Below, one piece after another: positions 1 to 20,215 of a stretch of DNA of 41,101 bases. Every line of letters begins with the position of its first letter. Within the stretch, counting starts at the first letter, position 1. The position numbers and the translations under genes are program-made. Origin of the DNA: Sphingomonadales bacterium (GTDB lineage: Bacteria; Pseudomonadota; Alphaproteobacteria; Sphingomonadales; Sphingomonadaceae); assembly GCA_025351405.1 (NCBI GenBank), contig JANXVZ010000028.1, positions 1 to 41,101 on the forward strand, in the 5' to 3' direction. The notes under the pieces are model-generated. The model saw only the letters and a program-made list of their open reading frames with translations, did no database searches and was not told where the DNA came from.

Positions 1-3000
1 AGCGGGGTGCCCCGGTATCGGCATCACGCGCAATGCCAAAGGCATATTGATGCCCGGGAATGGCCGTGACGCCGGGGAAAAACGCGGCACCGCGTGGCAA
101 CAGGTCGCCGGCCGCCTCCAGACGCTCGGCGCGCGGGGCATGCTCGGCATCGATATAGACACCATCGCGACGCACGGAGAGCGGCGGGCTTTTCTTGTCG
201 AGAAATTCGCGGATGCCGGTCTTGCCGCCGTCGGGATCGACGACCGCCTCGGCGAACAATTGCGCCTCGCGTTCAAGCCCGGCGGCCATCCCCTGCGTCC
301 ACCCGGTGCGGATTGCCTCGATGGCGCGTTGTCCGGCCCGGCCGCGCCCCGCCCAATCGAGCTGGCGGATGATGCGGGCAACGAACGGATCGGCCAGCGC
401 ATGGTCGAGATCGACGGTCGAAGCATGTTGCCAGGCGCCCTTGGCCGCCTTTTTGCGTTCGCGCCACGTCCGACCCAGCGCGCTGCTGTCGCCATGGCGC
501 ACGAACTCGCGCACCGCGGCATGGGCAAGCGACAGCGCATCGTCGGCGCCGGTTGCCAGGGTTTCGACGAGGCCTATCTCGAGCGCTGCCGTGCCATCGA
601 TGCTGCGGCCGCCGAGGATCAGATCGAGCGCGTCGCGCAGGCCGTCGGGACCGCGCTTTTCTGCAAGCAAGCGCGGCAACCGCTGGGTTCCGCCATATCC
701 CGGCAGCAACCGAAGGCGTATTTCGGGTTGGCCGAAGCGCGCATGGCTCTCCGCCACGCGCCAATGGCACGCAAGTGCGAACTCCATGCCGCCGCCAAGC
801 GCGACGCCCTGGATAGCGGCGACGCACGGCTTGCCCATGCTCTCGATCTTGGCGAACGCCAATTGCGCGTTGTTGGGCAGCACCCGCGCTTCCTCGACAG
901 TATGGATTTCGTCGAGGAACTGGCGGATGTCGGCACCGGCGACAAACGAGGCCGTGCCATCGCCGGTGAACACCACCGCGACCACGTCATCGCGGCGCGA
1001 CAGATGTTCGACAACGATGACGAGTTCGTCGATGGCACGCTCGTTCAATGCATTGACCGGCGGATTGGTCACGAACACCGTCGCGACCTTTTGACCGGCC
1101 GCTATCTCGTTGTACTGAACCCGGAAGTAGCGATAACGATCGAATACCTGCTGGTCTTCGCTAAGCCTTTGGCGCCGTTGCCAATCGCCGATGACCTTGC
1201 GGAGTTCATCGAGGCTTTCGGGGTTGCGCAGGGTGGTCACGTCGCCGACGTCGCCACCCTCGACAAGCGCCCGCACCATGCGCCGCATGTATTTGCCGCT
1301 GCGGGTTTCGGGGAACTGGCTGACTTCGATGAAATCACCAGGCACGGCAACGGCGCCCTTCTCCTGTCGCACGAGGTCGGACATACGGCGATAATCGTCG
1401 CGGGTCAGCGTGCGGCCCGGCGCCGGCGTGACAAACGCAATGGGCGTCAGCCCCTTTTCGCGGTGCGGCGCACCGATGACGAGGACATTCCCGAGCGGCG
1501 TATCCGGATCGAGTTGCTTTTCCCGCAGAATGGCGCCCTCAATCTCCTCGGTGCCCATCCGGTGCCCCGACACGTTGATGACGTCGTCGGAGCGCCCGTG
1601 CAGGGAAAAGCCCTCGTCGTCATGGCGCACGGCGAAGTCGCCCTGGGTATAGGCCCAAACACCGTTCCAGCGCCGCCAGTATCCGGCGTCCCAGCGTTCG
1701 CCGTCACCCTTCCATGCGGCATCGACATGACCATCCATGACGTTGAAACTGCCCGGATCGCCCCAGACTGTCCGCGCCAGATATGGATATGGTGCAGCGA
1801 TGACGATCTCGCCTTTTTCGCCGACGTTGGCGCGCCGCCAATTGACACCCGAAGCGCCTTCCTTCGACCCTGCAGCACGCGCGAACGGCGCAATCGCCTC
1901 CGCATCGCCGGCTTCATCCTCCAGCCACACATCGCCGACAATCCAGGGCAGCGGAAATGTTCGCGCATCGGCAGCCAGGGGAAAGTCGGCATTGCCGTAG
2001 AAATGCGTCCAGGCGATGCCGCCGTGCTCGGTCGCCCAATAGCTGTTGATATATTGCGGCGTGACATTCTGCATGCCGAAGGCCTGCACCGGCGGCGAAC
2101 AGGGCTCGGCGCAGAAGGTGGCGACGCGCAGTCCGCCCAGGTCATAAGCCTGAATGTCCTTCAAATTCTGGGGATCGGACATTACCGCCTTGAGGAAGGT
2201 GACGCCGGCCTTGAAAATGGTGACGCCGTGGCGCTCGATCATCGCCGCAAACCGTCCGGAATGCGGGAACACCGGCGCACCTTCGCCGATCAGGGTCGTC
2301 ACACGGGTCAGCAGCGGCGCAGCGATCATGTAGCTTTGGCCGGTAATCCAGCCGGGATCGGCGACAACATAGAGCACGTCGCCGGGCCGCGCATCGAAGG
2401 CCACCTTCATCGTCTCGGCGATGCCAGCCTCATAACCGCCATGGACATGCACGACGCCCTTTGGCTTGCCCGTCGAGCCCGAGGTGTAGATGAAGAACAT
2501 CGGATATTCGGCATCGACGACCGTGATCGGTGCAGCGGCCCAGATGGCGCGCACGAATTCGGCGTCGGGCAAGGCCATCAGCGCCGCTTCGTCGGCGATC
2601 CCTGCCCTGCGCAGGATCATCGCGAGCGCCTTGTCGGTCAGGTCATGGCTCCACACATCGCGATCGCGCCAAACAATATCGGGCTGGCCGGTGTGGCGTG
2701 CGACGATGACGGCCTCGACCCGCGGCGGTGTCGCCACCAGTGCTTCGGCGATGGCGATACGGATCCGCGCCGCGGCAGCCGAATCCGTCGTGCCGGCCTT
2801 GCCGAGCTCCGCCAGCGCCCGACCGACGCCGCGCATGACATCGCTGCGCTCGACGGTGACTTCGCCTTTCAGCGTTGTCGCGACGATATTGGCGATCATC
2901 GCGGCATCCGTCGCCGCGAGCCCCAAATCGGACCCGGCCAGACGTTCCCGCAGCAGCGTCAATGCCACTGTGACCGGTACATAATTATCAAGTGCCGGGT

Positions 3001-3772
3001 CGGTATAAGCCGTCTTGAACGGCACGATCTGCGCCATGCGATAGCCGCCGTCTGCGGTGATGACGATACGGGCGCCGGCATCGTGTATCCGGTCCGACAG
3101 CGTCTTGTCGCTGAACCCGCCGAAGACAGGTGTATAGAGGATGCCAAGCCGCTTGGCAGCCTCTGTCCAGTAAAGCTGCGCCGGAATATTGGGCATGTTC
3201 AACGCAATACGGTCGCCGGCCTTCAACCCGAGCTGGGTAAGCGCCACTGCGCATTTGGCTGTTTCAAGCAAGAGCCTGCGGCGGCTGACATGGTAGCAAT
3301 CGACCGGTGCACCCCGCCCGTTGTCCTGCGCCATGTCCCAACGATCGCCCTCGAAGATGAACGCGCTCTCATCGCCATGGCCGGCGAGGACATGACGATC
3401 GACTTCGTTGAAACAGGCATTGGTCCGGCCCCCGTCGAACCAGCGGAAGTGTGGCGCCTCGTCATCATTGAAGGCTCGGCTCCACGGCGCGAAATCGGCG
3501 GGAAGGTCGGGGGAGACAGGTCCCGCAGTGATGCTGTCCCATCCCGACCACCGGCCGCTTGCCTCATCGAAGCTCAACCAGGCAGACGTGCTGCCCAGAT
3601 CCACCAGCCAATGCAGGTTGCGCTTCGCGATCTTGCCATGAAACGCGCCGGGGTCGGCGAGCACCGCAGCGCGCATGGCATCCCAATCGGCGCGGGTCCG
3701 CACCGGGTTGACCAGCGCTACCGGCACGCCTGCAGCACCCGCCTTCATCGTCGCCGTCGAATGCTCGTTCAT
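1..3772 (-). CDS. pcs: Propionyl-CoA synthase (trifunctional), 3'-truncated by window edge
   Basis: About 1257 residues are visible from an ATG at 3772; no stop is reached before the left edge. The family converts 3-hydroxypropionate to propionyl-CoA using ATP, CoA and NADPH, through a synthetase, a dehydratase and a reductase domain in one chain. Seen here: an acyl-CoA synthetase domain with the P-loop YTSGSTGKPKG (residues 429-439), the GRSDDVINVSGHRMG motif and the A10 lysine K827 in ETRSGKYMRR; then an enoyl-CoA hydratase domain with GVALGGGMEF and GQPEIRL, giving catalytic glutamates E997 and E1017. The visible part ends at PGVTAIPGHQYAFGIARD, where the acrylyl-CoA reductase domain should begin, so roughly 550-600 residues are missing. 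The reading frame is intact. Similarity to the Chloroflexus enzyme is strong throughout, as recalled from memory, including the N-terminal ADPGAFHG and NACFNEVDRH blocks that ordinary acetyl-CoA synthetases share only in part. The fusion is what decides the call. Confidence 0.93.
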   Translation of the reverse strand, partial: MNEHSTATMKAGAAGVPVALVNPVRTRADWDAMRAAVLADPGAFHGKIAKRNLHWLVDLGSTSAWLSFDEASGRWSGWDSITAGPVSPDLPADFAPWSRAFNDDEAPHFRWFDGGRTNACFNEVDRHVLAGHGDESAFIFEGDRWDMAQDNGRGAPVDCYHVSRRRLLLETAKCAVALTQLGLKAGDRIALNMPNIPAQLYWTEAAKRLGILYTPVFGGFSDKTLSDRIHDAGARIVITADGGYRMAQIVPFKTAYTDPALDNYVPVTVALTLLRERLAGSDLGLAATDAAMIANIVATTLKGEVTVERSDVMRGVGRALAELGKAGTTDSAAAARIRIAIAEALVATPPRVEAVIVARHTGQPDIVWRDRDVWSHDLTDKALAMILRRAGIADEAALMALPDAEFVRAIWAAAPITVVDAEYPMFFIYTSGSTGKPKGVVHVHGGYEAGIAETMKVAFDARPGDVLYVVADPGWITGQSYMIAAPLLTRVTTLIGEGAPVFPHSGRFAAMIERHGVTIFKAGVTFLKAVMSDPQNLKDIQAYDLGGLRVATFCAEPCSPPVQAFGMQNVTPQYINSYWATEHGGIAWTHFYGNADFPLAADARTFPLPWIVGDVWLEDEAGDAEAIAPFARAAGSKEGASGVNWRRANVGEKGEIVIAAPYPYLARTVWGDPGSFNVMDGHVDAAWKGDGERWDAGYWRRWNGVWAYTQGDFAVRHDDEGFSLHGRSDDVINVSGHRMGTEEIEGAILREKQLDPDTPLGNVLVIGAPHREKGLTPIAFVTPAPGRTLTRDDYRRMSDLVRQEKGAVAVPGDFIEVSQFPETRSGKYMRRMVRALVEGGDVGDVTTLRNPESLDELRKVIGDWQRRQRLSEDQQVFDRYRYFRVQYNEIAAGQKVATVFVTNPPVNALNERAIDELVIVVEHLSRRDDVVAVVFTGDGTASFVAGADIRQFLDEIHTVEEARVLPNNAQLAFAKIESMGKPCVAAIQGVALGGGMEFALACHWRVAESHARFGQPEIRLRLLPGYGGTQRLPRLLAEKRGPDGLRDALDLILGGRSIDGTAALEIGLVETLATGADDALSLAHAAVREFVRHGDSSALGRTWRERKKAAKGAWQHASTVDLDHALADPFVARIIRQLDWAGRGRAGQRAIEAIRTGWTQGMAAGLEREAQLFAEAVVDPDGGKTGIREFLDKKSPPLSVRRDGVYIDAEHAPRAERLEAAGDLLPRGAAFFPGVTAIPGHQYAFGIARDADTGAPR

Positions 3773-4063
3773 GTCCTACCCCAGACCTTTGTGTCGGCGC
3801 TGCACTTCGACAACTGCCCTACGGCAGATGACCGACGACACCCGCGCTCCGTCAAGGCTGCGCTTCCACACCGGGCATCCAAAGCCATGGCGGGATCGCC
3901 TGCATAAACGGTCAACGACTGTCACGAATCGCGCTTACAGCACGATTATGTCGTTTCAAAGCGCTTTCTGCGAACGCTATTGCTGAAACCGGCTGTTACA
4001 ACGAATTCCATTGCGAGGTCTAAGCCTGCCAAGGCTGCCCTGCGACAAGATGGCCACCCGCGG
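3773..4063. other. Intergenic region upstream of pcs
   Basis: This 291-bp gap separates the stop of the acyltransferase from the start of the propionyl-CoA synthase, both on the minus strand, so it should contain the pcs promoter. A purine-rich GGTAGGA lies just before the pcs ATG and can serve as ribosome-binding site. A short dyad AGCCT-GCCA-AGGCT at 4023-4036, just past the acyltransferase stop, could be a weak terminator. A TTGACG hexamer occurs on the minus strand near 3855, but no convincing -10 partner was found. No gene is supported here. Confidence 0.5.
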
Positions 4064-7102: not shown

Positions 7103-7789
7103 TCATTTGAGTTCGGCCGCCAGTCGGCGACCGATAAGCACTTGCCGGTCGGCCGGATGCATGGCCCCGACCATCGCCCGTGCAAAACCGGCAAGACCCG
7201 CGAATATTTCCGGCGTTGGTTCTGCGACGGTCGACATCCGCACCAGGATACCGTCCGACAGGAAACCGTGCATCTGCTGCCGCAACTTGACCATCCGCTG
7301 TTCGCTTCCCGATGTCGGCAGGTCATCCCCGATCCGGGTCCAATAGGTGATCGGTTCGATCCGCGAATCGGAAACAGCGGTCAGATCGCGAACCGGCAGG
7401 TTGGCCGTCCCGCCTAGCGCGACGCTGGCGGCTTTTGAATCCGAAATGGTAAAGCCGACCGCCGCGTAGCAGACTTCTGGGCGGTGCAACTGGAGAAGGT
7501 CATTCTGCACCGCCCCATAGGCGATGACGAGCATCACCGGAACACGCGTCGGGGAAAGATACAGTCGACTTATCGTCTGGCTGTATAGCCTGTCCGCGAG
7601 GCTGCCAGGGGTTTTCGGCAGCACAAAAGCGGTCGACGGGCTATGGTCCCAATCGCCGATGCGGACCGGAATAATATCATCGAGTTTGCGGTCGCCAAGC
7701 AGGACAAGCCGTTTCCGCGGCGTCAGTGCTGCCGCCGCGCCCGCCGCCAGCAACAAACTGCCGCCCATCAAGATGTCACGCCGATTCAT
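7103..7789 (-). CDS. epsI: Exosortase-associated protein EpsI, V-type
   Basis: 228 residues. The N-terminus MNRRDILMGGSLLLAAGAAAAL resembles a twin-arginine (Tat-like) signal or a single anchor, placing the rest in the periplasm. The EpsI core is visible around DLLQLHRPEVCYAAVGFTI, the family's conserved HxPE.C block, followed by the TNLPVR-like TANLPVRDL strand and PITYW. In related systems EpsI follows or is fused to the exosortase and is needed for polysaccharide production or sorting, though its chemistry is not settled. The ATG overlaps the XrtV stop by four bases (7786-7789), so the two are translationally coupled. Signal type (Tat or Sec) should be treated as open. Confidence 0.88.
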   Translation of the reverse strand: MNRRDILMGGSLLLAAGAAAALTPRKRLVLLGDRKLDDIIPVRIGDWDHSPSTAFVLPKTPGSLADRLYSQTISRLYLSPTRVPVMLVIAYGAVQNDLLQLHRPEVCYAAVGFTISDSKAASVALGGTANLPVRDLTAVSDSRIEPITYWTRIGDDLPTSGSEQRMVKLRQQMHGFLSDGILVRMSTVAEPTPEIFAGLAGFARAMVGAMHPADRQVLIGRRLAAELK

Positions 7790-8673
7790 GGCTGCTCCGC
7801 CGTGTCATCGGCAAGTGCATTGCGCAGCGGCGTCAACAGCTTGTCGATGAGAAAGATGAAGAGGAGCGCCGAAGTGAATGTCACCATGCCCGCGAAACCA
7901 TGAAGATAGCCCTGCGCAGCGCCATCGCCGAAGTGATAGGTAATCAGCACCAGTGCCGCCACCCGGATGCAGTTCGCCGCCACCGCGATCGGCAGCACCA
8001 GTGCCAGCAACAACACGGAATAGCGCCAATTGCTCCCGCGCAACATGTAGACATAAAATAGCCCGATGGCCGACAGGCTGACGAGAGAATTGAGCCCGGC
8101 GCAAGCGTCCTCGACCAGCAGCTGGTATGTCGAGACGTATATCGTCACCCCGACATGAGCGATCGGATAGCCGAACAGCGCCAGCACTCGCGCAACGGTT
8201 TCCGACACGAAAAGCTTCAACGGCTGTGTGATGGCATCGAGCAGCCAGCCGGGGATGGGAATGATGAATGCCAGGTAGAAGATCGGAAACCACATCATGC
8301 GCAAGACCGCCGGCCCGACATAGGCATAGGAAACCGACAATAGCGCCAGCAGCAGTGCCGCCACCTCGACACTGATGAAATCGAAAGCCCGACCAAAGGC
8401 ATAGGCGGGGACGGCGATCGCCAGGCCGGCAAACGCCAAAGGCATGAAGCCGGGCACCATGCGTGCCCGTATTTCGGGCCAGCGACGCGCAATCAGCCAA
8501 CCTCCGGTCGCAATGACAATGGGACCGTGGACGCCCGACTCCGTCGACCACGGCCCGCGGCCAAGCGAAAACAGCGTCGGCAAGGCCATGGCAAGCACGC
8601 CGAGCAGCAACGGCCAATGCCGCCCCGCCACACCCCGCCAGTCAAAAGGTGCGGCCGTGGCCATAGTGGCCAT
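7786..8673 (-). CDS. xrtV: Exosortase V
   Basis: 295 residues, polytopic inner-membrane protein with about eight hydrophobic segments. The exosortase catalytic triad is readable: C191 in EDACAGLNSL, R237 in ANCIRVA and H258 in GYLHGFAG, all at the expected faces of late helices. Exosortases are transpeptidase-like proteases that cleave C-terminal PEP-CTERM-like sorting signals and pass proteins on for surface attachment, and they co-occur with EPS genes. The ATG at 8673 is two bases past the stop of the upstream kinase-like gene; a second ATG lies at 8664. The V-type assignment rests on the neighbours (small accessory protein, V-type EpsI) and sphingomonad context. No protein in this window ends in a recognisable sorting signal. 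Confidence 0.92.
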   Translation of the reverse strand: MATMATAAPFDWRGVAGRHWPLLLGVLAMALPTLFSLGRGPWSTESGVHGPIVIATGGWLIARRWPEIRARMVPGFMPLAFAGLAIAVPAYAFGRAFDFISVEVAALLLALLSVSYAYVGPAVLRMMWFPIFYLAFIIPIPGWLLDAITQPLKLFVSETVARVLALFGYPIAHVGVTIYVSTYQLLVEDACAGLNSLVSLSAIGLFYVYMLRGSNWRYSVLLLALVLPIAVAANCIRVAALVLITYHFGDGAAQGYLHGFAGMVTFTSALLFIFLIDKLLTPLRNALADDTAEQP

Positions 8674-8675
8674 GC

Positions 8676-9584
8676 TCAGAACTCGTTGAGGATGGAGCCG
8701 ATGACCGGGCATCGCGACGAAGCAAGCTGGCCGACGAGCGTCGTGACATCCTTGAGGAAGCTGTGGTTGCGACGCGCGACCACCAGTGCGTATCCGGCCG
8801 CCGCACCGACGGTCAGCGCATCGGCATTGGCATTGGCGGCCGGTGTATCGAAAATCGCGATGTCATATTCACGAAGCAGCGTGTTGACCCCGTCGCGGAA
8901 ACGGCTTCCGGCAAGAAGCTCCTGTGGTCGCGCGATCGGGGGGCCTGCCGTGATAACCGAAAGGCTTGGCAGCACATTGGCATGGACAACTCGTTCCGGG
9001 CGCGCCACCTGCAGCGACAGAAAATTCGAAAGACCCGGCGCATTGGGATCGAGGCCGAAGATCTGGTCGATACGCGGCGATCGCATGTTGGCATCGACGA
9101 GCAAGGTCTTGATCCCGACCTGCGAGAGCGAGGCGGCAAGATTTGCTGCAAGCCACGAACAGCCAACGCCGTCGGATGGCGAAACCATCGCCAGGCCGCG
9201 ACGGCCCGACTTGATGTGCTGGGCTATCACCTGGGTGCGCAACAGCCGTACGGCTTCCGACCGCAGTCCCGATGGGTCGTTGATGACGACGAGTTCGTCG
9301 GACATTGCGCGGCGCTGCGTATCCTGCAACGCCATGCTGTTGATCAACTGTTCGCGGGCCCGATCGAGATCGTCGGTGGTGATGAACCCGAGTTCGAGTG
9401 CCGCCTGGTCGAAATCGAGACCGCGCGTCTGCTGATGGGCCGCGACGCGCTGGGTCTGATCCTCCGACAGATATCCGAGCCGCAGCAATGCGTCGCGGAT
9501 TGGTGCGTCGAAACGCTCGCGGCCGTCGTCGACGCGCGACTCGAGGTCGGTCGCGGGAGCGCTGTCCATGTCTGTGTTACTCAT
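8676..9584 (-). CDS. EpsG/CpsD-type tyrosine-kinase-like ATPase with degenerate P-loop
   Basis: 302 residues. Residues about 25-80 resemble the MshEN/GspE N-terminal domain (LLRLGYLSEDQTQRVAAHQ, ALELGFITTDDLDRA). Residues 120-300 form the BY-kinase fold that partners with Wzz/GumC proteins to control chain length. The P-loop reads DGVGCSWLAANLA: the usual lysine is C142 and the following Thr is Trp. The Walker A' reads LLVDANMRSP with Asn for the second Asp. Walker B is normal (IAIFDTP). There is no C-terminal tyrosine cluster; the protein ends GSILNEF. In EpsG relatives the P-loop lysine is often already arginine, so this is probably a non-catalytic or altered regulator of the adjacent chain-length protein. 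It overlaps that gene by four bases. Confidence 0.85.
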   Translation of the reverse strand: MSNTDMDSAPATDLESRVDDGRERFDAPIRDALLRLGYLSEDQTQRVAAHQQTRGLDFDQAALELGFITTDDLDRAREQLINSMALQDTQRRAMSDELVVINDPSGLRSEAVRLLRTQVIAQHIKSGRRGLAMVSPSDGVGCSWLAANLAASLSQVGIKTLLVDANMRSPRIDQIFGLDPNAPGLSNFLSLQVARPERVVHANVLPSLSVITAGPPIARPQELLAGSRFRDGVNTLLREYDIAIFDTPAANANADALTVGAAAGYALVVARRNHSFLKDVTTLVGQLASSRCPVIGSILNEF

Positions 9585-18053: not shown

Positions 18054-19295
18054 ATGAATAGCGTCGCTTTTCAGTCACCTGCATTGCGGCGGGTGGCGCG
18101 CGGCCAGCTGTGCAGTGGTTGCGGCCTGTGCGCCGGGATCGCGCCGGCTGCAGTGGCGATGACAATGCAGGAGCCGGGTTATCTCAGGCCCCGGCAGAAC
18201 GCAGCACTCACGCCGGGCGAAGAAACCGCGATTGCATCCGCCTGCCCCGGTCTTGTCGTCGATGAGCGCGATACTTGCGGCGCTGGCAACGGCTTGGGCA
18301 GCGATGCACTATGGGGCCCGGCACGCTTTGTCGGCACCGGCTACGCCACCGATGCGGCGCTGCGCCACCAGGCGTCATCCGGCGGGGTGATATCGATGGT
18401 GCTGGTGCATGCACTGGAAAGCGGGCTTGTCGACTTCATTGTCCAGACCGGTGCCGATGACGCCGTTCCGACGGCAAACAGCACCGGCAAATCAACGGGC
18501 TATGCCGATATCTTCGCGGCTGCCGGTTCTCGCTACACAGCGTCCGCGCCTCTTGCCGAACTGGAATCATGGCTTCAGCAGTCTGGCCGCTTTGCCTTTG
18601 TCGGCAAACCATGTGACGTCGCTGCCCTGCGTGCGCGTGCGCGCACCGACCCGCGCATAAACGCCAAGGTGCCGTTGATGCTGGCGTTCTTTTGCGCCGG
18701 CATCCCCAGCGCCGCCGGCACGGGACGCATCCTTGATGCGCTCGGCGTTGACGCCGACGAGGTCATCGGCTTTCGCTATCGCGGCGACGGGTGGCCCGGC
18801 TATGCCACGGCGACGCTCAGGGATGGCAGCAACCGGCGCATGACATATGCTGACAGCTGGGGTGATATCCTTTCGAAGGAGCTGCAATTTCGTTGCAAGA
18901 TTTGCCCCGATGCGGTTGGAAATGCGGCTGATATTTCCTGCGCTGATGCCTGGTATGGCGATGACCGCGGCTATCCGAGCTTTGAAGAAGCCGAAGGCCG
19001 CAGCCTTGTCATTGCGCGCACCAGGGTTGGCGAGGCACTTCTGGCCGAGGCTCGAGCGGCGGGCCGATTGGTCACAGCACCATTGGCAATCGCCGAGATC
19101 GCCAAGATGCAGCCGTCGCAGGCGCGGCGCAAGAAACAGATACTGTCGCGTCTTGCCGCAATGGCGGTTGCAGGGCGGCCCCTGCCCCGTTATCGCGGGC
19201 TCCGGCTTTGGGCCGCCGCTGCCCGCGATACGCCGGTTGGCCAGGCACGCAGCTTCGCCGGTTTGCTGCGCCGGTTTATCCAGGGACGCATATGA
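18054..19295 (+). CDS. FrhB-type (coenzyme F420 hydrogenase beta subunit family) iron-sulfur protein in EPS locus
   Basis: 413 residues from the ATG at 18054. The N-terminus has CSGCGLC (C20, C23, C26), a partial 4Fe-4S motif in which the usual fourth cysteine-proline is missing. The FrhB/FdhB C-terminal domain follows, with [31 protein letters not shown] and the cysteine-rich [22 protein letters not shown]. In hydrogenases this family reduces F420, but many members lie in surface-polysaccharide loci of bacteria that may not make F420, often beside pyruvyl transferases. None is present here. A flavin/iron-sulfur redox step on a sugar or a bound intermediate is possible; the function is not known. 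The stop overlaps the rfbA start by four bases. Confidence 0.82.
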
Positions 19296-20182
19296 CGGCA
19301 CGGCGCGGCATAATTCTGGCGGGCGGATCGGGAACCCGCCTGTATCCACTGACGAAGCCGGTCTCGAAGCAATTGATGCCGGTGTATGACAAGCCGATGA
19401 TCTACTACCCGCTGTCCGTTCTCATGCTGGCGGGGGTACGCGAAGTGCTGGTCATCACAACGCCGGGCGATAGCGCGGCGTTCAAGGGTCTGCTCGGCGA
19501 CGGCAGCGACTGGGGCATGGCGATCAGCTACGCCGTCCAACCTGAACCCAAGGGCCTGGCGCAAGCCTACCACATCGGTGCCGATTTCGTAGGAAGCCGC
19601 CCTTCCGTGCTGATATTGGGTGATAATATCTTTCACGGTCACGGCTTGCCGGAGCTTTTGGCGAGGGCGGACGCGCGCAGCGAGGGCGCCACGGTGTTCG
19701 GTTACTATGTCAAGGATCCACAGGCCTATGGGGTCGTGTCCTTCGATGCCGCCGGCCGCGCCGCGACGATCGAGGAGAAGCCCCATGTGCCCCGGTCCAA
19801 CTATGCCGTCACCGGGTTGTATTTTTACGATGGCCGCGTCGTGGAGTTTGCCCGGGACATCAAGCCATCGGCACGCGGTGAACTCGAAATTACCGATCTC
19901 AACCGCATTTACCTCGAGGCAGGTGCGCTAAACGTCGAATTGATGGGTCGTGGCTTTGCATGGCTCGATACCGGCACGCATGGCTCGCTGCTCGACGCAG
20001 CGCTGTATGTCCGCATCGTCGAGGAACGGCAGGGATTGAAGATCTGTTGCCCCGAGGAAATCGCCTGGCGACTGGGTTTTATCGATGCGGCGCAGCTGGC
20101 GCGGATAGCCGAGCCACTTCGCAAATCAGGCTATGGCGAATATCTGCTGGGCCAATTGCAGATAGCCGGGGATCGCGCATGA
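19292..20182 (+). CDS. rfbA: Glucose-1-phosphate thymidylyltransferase
   Basis: 296 residues, the usual length. It makes dTDP-glucose from dTTP and glucose-1-phosphate, the first step to dTDP-L-rhamnose. The nucleotide-binding signature [16 protein letters not shown] is at residues 6-21, followed by [28 protein letters not shown] and [20 protein letters not shown], all typical of Rml[11 protein letters not shown] marks the C-terminal region. It begins the tightly packed rhamnose operon; the ATG overlaps the upstream TGA (ATGA). The gene order here (A, oxygenase, C, D, B) differs from the more common B-D-A-C. Confidence 0.97.
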
Positions 20183-20215
20183 TGACATGTGCTTCGTTAA
20201 CCACTTCAGCGGTAT

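Follow-up and report, generated by a model that had tools for sequence, protein, structure and literature searches.

How much CO2 is taken up by aerobic anoxygenic phototrophs that lack RuBisCO, and by which enzymes, are open matters. They are raised here by a gene at the left edge of a 41,101-nucleotide contig (JANXVZ010000028.1, positions 1 to 41,101, forward strand) of the Sphingomonadales assembly GCA_025351405.1. We call this stretch, at its full length, the window; it is the complete contig C31 of the source genome (G000; 3.02 Mb, 98% complete, 48 contigs), and G, C and L numbers are our handles for genomes, contigs and loci. An original prediction, made from the DNA letters of the window, held that the gene encodes a trifunctional propionyl-CoA synthase (PCS) of the 3-hydroxypropionate (3HP) bi-cycle. 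What would such an enzyme do in this bacterium? We think it highly probable that the PCS, encoded directly before a malonyl-CoA reductase (MCR) gene in a phototrophic sphingomonad, serves CO2 co-assimilation through the first half of the bi-cycle, from acetyl-CoA to succinyl-CoA.

Results

A trifunctional PCS divided between two contigs

The features of the window that identify the gene are listed below; rows are those of a 36-row PCS alignment (the source PCS, 34 other loci and a fragment of the Erythrobacter sp. NAP1 enzyme).

Window 2..3772, minus strand: the first 1257 aa of PCS, covering the ligase and dehydratase domains and running into the reductase part, where the contig ends; from the reading frame, Pfam and phmmer.
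Window 2456..2488, minus strand: ATP-binding P-loop YTSGSTGKPKG, residues 429-439; Y/FTSGSTGKPKG in 35 of 35 covering rows.
Window 1292..1294, minus strand: K827, in RSGKY, ligase domain; K in 35 of 35 covering rows.
Window 782..784, minus strand: E997, dehydratase domain; E in 35 of 35 covering rows.
Window 722..724, minus strand: E1017, dehydratase domain; E in 35 of 35 covering rows.
Window 1..295: imperfect match to the terminal bases of contig C46 (C46:41371-41665), where the PCS gene continues into the reductase domain and is followed by malonyl-CoA reductase; 285 of 295 bases identical.

The frame starts with an ATG at 3772, runs uninterrupted for 1257 aa and leaves the window at its left edge. 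Pfam places ACAS_N, AMP-binding, AMP-binding_C and ECH_1/ECH_2 on this one chain, which thus joins a ligase to a hydratase as had been predicted, and the P-loop and the three single residues lie exactly where the prediction put them. We take K827 to be the A10-type lysine of the ligase domain, and E997 and E1017 to be the first and second catalytic glutamates of the crotonase fold. When the frame was compared with PDB sequences using phmmer, the top match was 6EQO_A (1850 aa; 1858 bits, query 27-1257 to chain 26-1266), a match that is far beyond chance. The matches that follow it are acetyl-CoA synthetases, and the second best reaches only 273 bits. 6EQO itself is labelled an acetyl-coenzyme A synthetase in the PDB table; we take it to be the PCS of Erythrobacter sp. 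NAP1.

The original prediction expected a reductase domain past the left edge, and one was found. The C-terminal region of the PCS homologue of Polymorphobacter multimanifer (L023) was used as a query against G000, and it located the missing part at C46:39638-41377 on the minus strand (86% identical to the query), close to the last base of that contig (41665). This C46 frame contains the C-terminal medium-chain reductase domain and matches 6EQO 1171-1844 with 1099 bits and 71.7% identity (483/674). Joined in frame across the overlap, C31 and C46 give a PCS of 1842 aa, with no early stop after the hydratase domain. The 10 mismatches in the overlap all fall at third codon positions and one of them alters a residue (D1181 to E), the pattern that purifying selection would leave between two strains living side by side; the break between the contigs was probably caused by strain variation that interrupted assembly. 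One long PCS frame (1835-1887 aa, stop to stop) is found in 19 of the 23 PCS-positive genomes among the relatives described below, and the frame is shorter in the source, G023, G005 and G013. D1293 of the source PCS, which pairs with 6EQO D1302, is invariant in all 36 rows; the aspartate at this position presumably has a role in suppressing carboxylation.

MCR follows PCS

The original prediction also suggested a search for MCR, and the gene was found directly after PCS. On C46 the PCS stop codon (TGA) is separated by 10 bases from the ATG of the following protein:

L053:9942-13604, minus strand: bifunctional MCR, 1220 aa; from sequence search and PDB sequence matches.

This protein consists of two short-chain dehydrogenase parts. 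It aligns nearly full length with 8HI4 and 8HJW, and by halves with 6K8S and 6K8V; all four are labelled short-chain dehydrogenases in the table and we take them to be malonyl-CoA reductases. The two genes most likely form one operon. Because MCR directly follows PCS, malonyl-CoA is the simplest source of 3-hydroxypropionate for the enzyme.

MCR was found together with PCS in 18 of 26 other loci tested. Twenty loci have a PCS with 69% or more identity to that of the source, and these 18 are among them; the remaining two (L013 and L020) end too early, so that MCR accompanies PCS in every locus of this group that extends far enough. In five of the 24 loci searched, all from sphingomonads, accA lies directly 3' of MCR (L022, at 19237-20193, and L011, L012, L017 and L018), which ties the pcs-mcr pair to malonyl-CoA supply. 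In the 9.9 kb after the source MCR the genes identified encode a DUF748 protein, followed on the opposite strand by DAHP synthase and a pyridine-nucleotide oxidoreductase, and a DUF1294 protein. Within this stretch (L053), the only part of the genome searched for them, Mch, Mct, Meh and succinyl-CoA:malate CoA-transferase were not identified, and no CoA-transferase family III gene was found there. In two loci from Burkholderiaceae metagenome-assembled genomes (MAGs), MCR is followed by two CoA-transferase family III genes (L016, 9849-12477; L021, 16059-18577). In L016 an intervening frame has no Pfam match, and no NCBIfam model matches the L016 pair above its cut-off. Both pairs are candidates for succinyl-CoA:malate CoA-transferase.

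A more diverged group of PCS homologues, about 51-56% identical to the source, comes from three haloarchaeal plasmids and three alphaproteobacterial genomes (L079-L081 and L089-L091). None of the six loci has an MCR match in the stretch read, which for L079-L081 covers 12 kb on each side of the matched part. Thus, PCS can occur with no MCR gene linked to it, and the source of 3-hydroxypropionate may differ between the two groups. A methylmalonyl-CoA mutase gene lies near PCS in two of the three haloarchaeal loci, and no second pathway is shared among the neighbours in the annotation of these three loci and in eight neighbour frames of L089-L091. The haloarchaeal homologues (NZ_CP084883.1, NZ_CP095398.1 and NZ_CP099392.1) are full length and about 53% identical to the source PCS; they lie on large plasmids of Natrinema, Natribaculum and Natronococcus, with five plasmid records in total.

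The remaining steps in the source genome

The photosynthesis genes that the original prediction said should be sought are present, and so are carboxyltransferases and methylmalonyl-CoA mutase. Contig C23 bears two PF00124 matches (reaction-centre genes of the pufL/pufM type), with pufM at 528 bits (cut-off 364.25) and BchY at 721.9 bits (cut-off 425.15). The mutase scores 911.9 bits against a cut-off of 876, and its gene is in two pieces at contig ends. There are five carboxyltransferase matches, candidate parts of acetyl-CoA or propionyl-CoA carboxylase; one lies near a biotin carboxylase frame.

Isocitrate lyase is also present (1031.7 bits, cut-off 446), and we therefore rejected the idea that the PCS route substitutes for an absent glyoxylate bypass. 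By profile match alone, PF00463 (isocitrate lyase) is found in all 24 of the relatives that carry PCS and/or MCR, G003 having one C-terminal fragment only. The ethylmalonyl-CoA pathway was rejected because no crotonyl-CoA carboxylase/reductase match exceeds the TIGR01751 cut-off in any of these 24 genomes, the source included. At E <= 1e-40 the sole match in 21 of them is below the cut-off and lies inside the PCS reductase, and G005, G013 and G016 have none. A Calvin cycle in the source was rejected because RuBisCO has no match there, nor in any other of the 24 genomes except G021. G021, which also bears PCS/MCR, has two RuBisCO large-chain matches (C1:1149544-1150467 and C2:335245-336087). 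Two HpcH/HpaI-type (PF03328) proteins occur in the source genome; their nearest models, citE and HpaI, are under cut-off, and none of the malyl-CoA lyase models matched either protein.

Distribution and phylogeny

The relatives set comprised 60 genomes, source included. PCS was found in 23 and MCR in 24, giving 24 genomes with PCS and/or MCR, and PF00124 matches are present in 23 of these (the exception, G005, is 75% complete). Within the source genus 23 of 24 genomes carry PCS and/or MCR; in the remaining one (G019, given as 100% complete), no match was found for PCS, MCR or reaction-centre genes. The genus includes Polymorphobacter multimanifer, which fits the 'sphingomonad-like' genome of the original prediction, and the MCR of L023 is 100% identical in G007. 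The query for the MCR genome search started about 30 residues before the gene, within the end of PCS, which is probably why the G021 match contains one stop. Of 385 sampled alphaproteobacterial genomes, 5 (source included) carry PCS.

A PCS tree was built by a quick search under LG+G4 from 28 rows, 8 source-genus rows having been removed from the original 36; the NAP1 row covers 36% of the columns and six rows have an unusual letter make-up. One clade of 22 rows (SH-aLRT 100) unites the source with NAP1 and the remaining rows in the group of at least 69% identity, and inside it the source genus is a separate branch. L092, from a member of the source's family (G024), groups with NAP1 and G182 and not with the source genus. 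This placement suggests transfer of PCS between lineages, an event that a quick 28-row tree cannot date.

Discussion

Based on these results, we propose a model for how PCS is used in the source bacterium. Its foundations can be read directly from the assembly: the domain order, the conserved catalytic residues, the reductase on C46, the MCR 10 bases downstream, the reaction-centre genes, the mutase and the carboxyltransferases. Acetyl-CoA would be carboxylated to malonyl-CoA, which MCR would reduce to 3-hydroxypropionate with two NADPH. PCS, with predicted activities as 3-hydroxypropionyl-CoA synthetase, 3-hydroxypropionyl-CoA dehydratase and NADPH-dependent acrylyl-CoA reductase, would convert 3-hydroxypropionate, ATP, CoA and NADPH to propionyl-CoA, and propionyl-CoA carboxylase and methylmalonyl-CoA mutase would carry this on to succinyl-CoA. 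In sum, two bicarbonates would be fixed per acetyl-CoA and enter the tricarboxylic acid (TCA) cycle, at the expense of light-derived ATP and reducing power. The reaction scheme of the bi-cycle is established, and its enzymes are listed in the legend to Figure 6 of PMC8307300. We infer that the scheme operates in the source bacterium.

The host is predicted to live as an aerobic anoxygenic phototroph within the Polymorphobacter/Sandarakinorhabdus group, and is most likely a photoheterotroph; the evidence does not support full autotrophy. With isocitrate lyase available, the bacterium should be able to grow on acetate without this route, which favours a role in CO2 co-assimilation and in the use of light-derived energy. 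We suggest, more tentatively, that in the source genus the pcs-mcr half-cycle could be a core companion of phototrophy that is kept or lost with the photosynthesis genes, providing an outlet for light-derived ATP and NADPH and an anaplerotic, CO2-fixing side route despite isocitrate lyase.

Several observations weigh against our model. Of the 36 genomes that have neither PCS nor MCR, four (G026, G029, G037 and G046) also contain PF00124 matches. The co-occurrence of PCS/MCR with phototrophy comes almost entirely from one genus (23 of the 24 genomes) and is thus close to a single evolutionary event. The PCS protein is a join of two contigs whose overlap has 10 mismatches in 295 bases. The assignment of propionyl-CoA carboxylase is by family and neighbourhood only, and the score of its candidate carboxyltransferase (760.6) is under the cut-off of the sole model listed (998.8). 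Isocitrate lyase means that the route is not needed to stand in for the glyoxylate bypass. Last, the motif TGT-N12-ACA, which we take to be a PpsR-type site, is absent upstream of the source PCS and occurs once in each of two of the 24 other loci, about the chance rate; thus, light control is not visible upstream of PCS.

PCS might instead serve chiefly to use 3-hydroxypropionate or acrylate from outside, with dimethylsulphoniopropionate as one possible origin, and feed propionyl-CoA into the methylmalonyl-CoA route. The chemistry of PCS would permit this. In the diverged group none of the six loci has an MCR match in the stretch read, and two of the three haloarchaeal ones have a mutase gene near PCS. 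However, in the source an enzyme that makes 3-hydroxypropionate from malonyl-CoA is encoded 10 bases downstream, and the same pairing is found in all 18 loci of the closer group that reach far enough, so we regard this explanation as unlikely. The original prediction had named both this use and a part of the bi-cycle as possible roles, and it is the second that the MCR neighbour favours. That the gene is an ordinary fusion of acetyl-CoA synthetase and enoyl-CoA hydratase without PCS function is hardly credible. The 25 best NCBIfam models (of 147) on the PCS frame are indeed single-activity ligases, hydratases and fatty-acid oxidation proteins, but all are under cut-off. We rejected this fusion on the full-length match to 6EQO, which is a PCS and not such a fusion, and on the third, reductase domain on C46; the long frame in 19 of the 23 PCS-positive genomes speaks against it as well.

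A complete bi-cycle with autotrophic growth appears very unlikely, although PCS, MCR, the mutase and carboxyltransferases are all present, MCR is followed by two CoA-transferase family III genes in Burkholderiaceae relatives, and genomic potential for the whole cycle has been reported for Burkholderiaceae MAGs (PMC9802188). None of the genes identified in the 9.9 kb downstream of the source MCR belongs to glyoxylate salvage, and neither HpcH/HpaI protein is hit by a malyl-CoA lyase model. Additionally, Porphyrobacter sp. ULC335 is described as lacking a full carbon fixation pathway (PMC10674011). We therefore prefer the half-cycle that ends at succinyl-CoA.

Like the NAP1 enzyme, the source PCS has three parts in the same order and the aspartate at D1293 (6EQO D1302), and both fall in the same 22-row clade; as far as the proteins are concerned, they differ by sequence divergence only, with the 71.7% identity covering 674 C-terminal residues. 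The NAP1 enzyme has a latent carboxylase activity that can be improved (PMC10176493). With the bi-cycle of Chloroflexus aurantiacus the source shares PCS, a bifunctional MCR, the mutase and carboxyltransferases, as judged from the enzyme sets. It differs in that no glyoxylate-salvage (second-cycle) genes were found beside PCS-MCR and in having isocitrate lyase. L016 and L021, which need not come from the MAGs of PMC9802188, resemble the source in having PCS and then MCR, and differ in the two CoA-transferase genes that follow. That paper also notes the detection of PCS and MCR in Alpha- and Gammaproteobacteria.

Porphyrobacter sp. ULC335 is presumably sphingomonad kin of the source, in another genus. 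It is an aerobic anoxygenic phototroph with key 3HP-bicycle enzymes 'like Erythrobacter sp. NAP1', and CO2 co-assimilation has been suggested for it (PMC10674011). Expression was measured there, the 3HP genes being up in daytime, whereas the source is known from its genes alone; the available text of that paper does not name PCS or MCR. Elsewhere, a Sandarakinorhabdus MAG was placed among potential mixotrophs, and anoxygenic photosynthesis was linked to carbon fixation other than by the Calvin cycle (PMC10239486). Polymorphobacter has been listed among genera with pufLM and form IC RuBisCO (PMC12999727); within the source genus the one genome in which we found RuBisCO matches was G021. No complete alternative carbon fixation pathway was predicted for 49 lichen bacterial MAGs (PMC11542873). 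In the open-licence literature, as far as its text was available, we found no description of a pcs-mcr operon in Polymorphobacter or Sandarakinorhabdus. Key 3HP enzymes are already published for related sphingomonad phototrophs, and the source PCS adds the context of a whole genus.

This context makes a genetic test of light-driven CO2 co-assimilation possible, as a genus with a conserved pcs-mcr pair can be combined with Polymorphobacter multimanifer DSM 102189 and a close relative that lacks pcs, mcr and the reaction centre. Moreover, the loci supply many natural variants of PCS, an enzyme that is used in synthetic CO2-fixing pathways (PMC11599936).

Other features of the locus and of the relatives

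A plus-strand frame is also open over window 2..3907, which we read as a shadow frame such as GC-rich coding DNA produces. The G+C content of PCS (64.6%) does not contrast with that of the remainder of the window (63.2%), and a recent foreign origin of PCS by base composition was rejected for this reason. The DUF748 gene after MCR (L053:6640-9900, minus strand) is broken into two frames that cover profile positions 13-437 and 461-1030. In G029 there are two separate pairs of reaction-centre matches, on contigs C1 and C3. An exosortase V gene lies in the window at 7786-8712 on the minus strand (374.3 bits, cut-off 313), in what looks like an exopolysaccharide cluster; one other frame of this region gave no match when scanned. 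It is among the frames upstream of PCS that recur upstream of PCS in L009, L010, L015 and L023.

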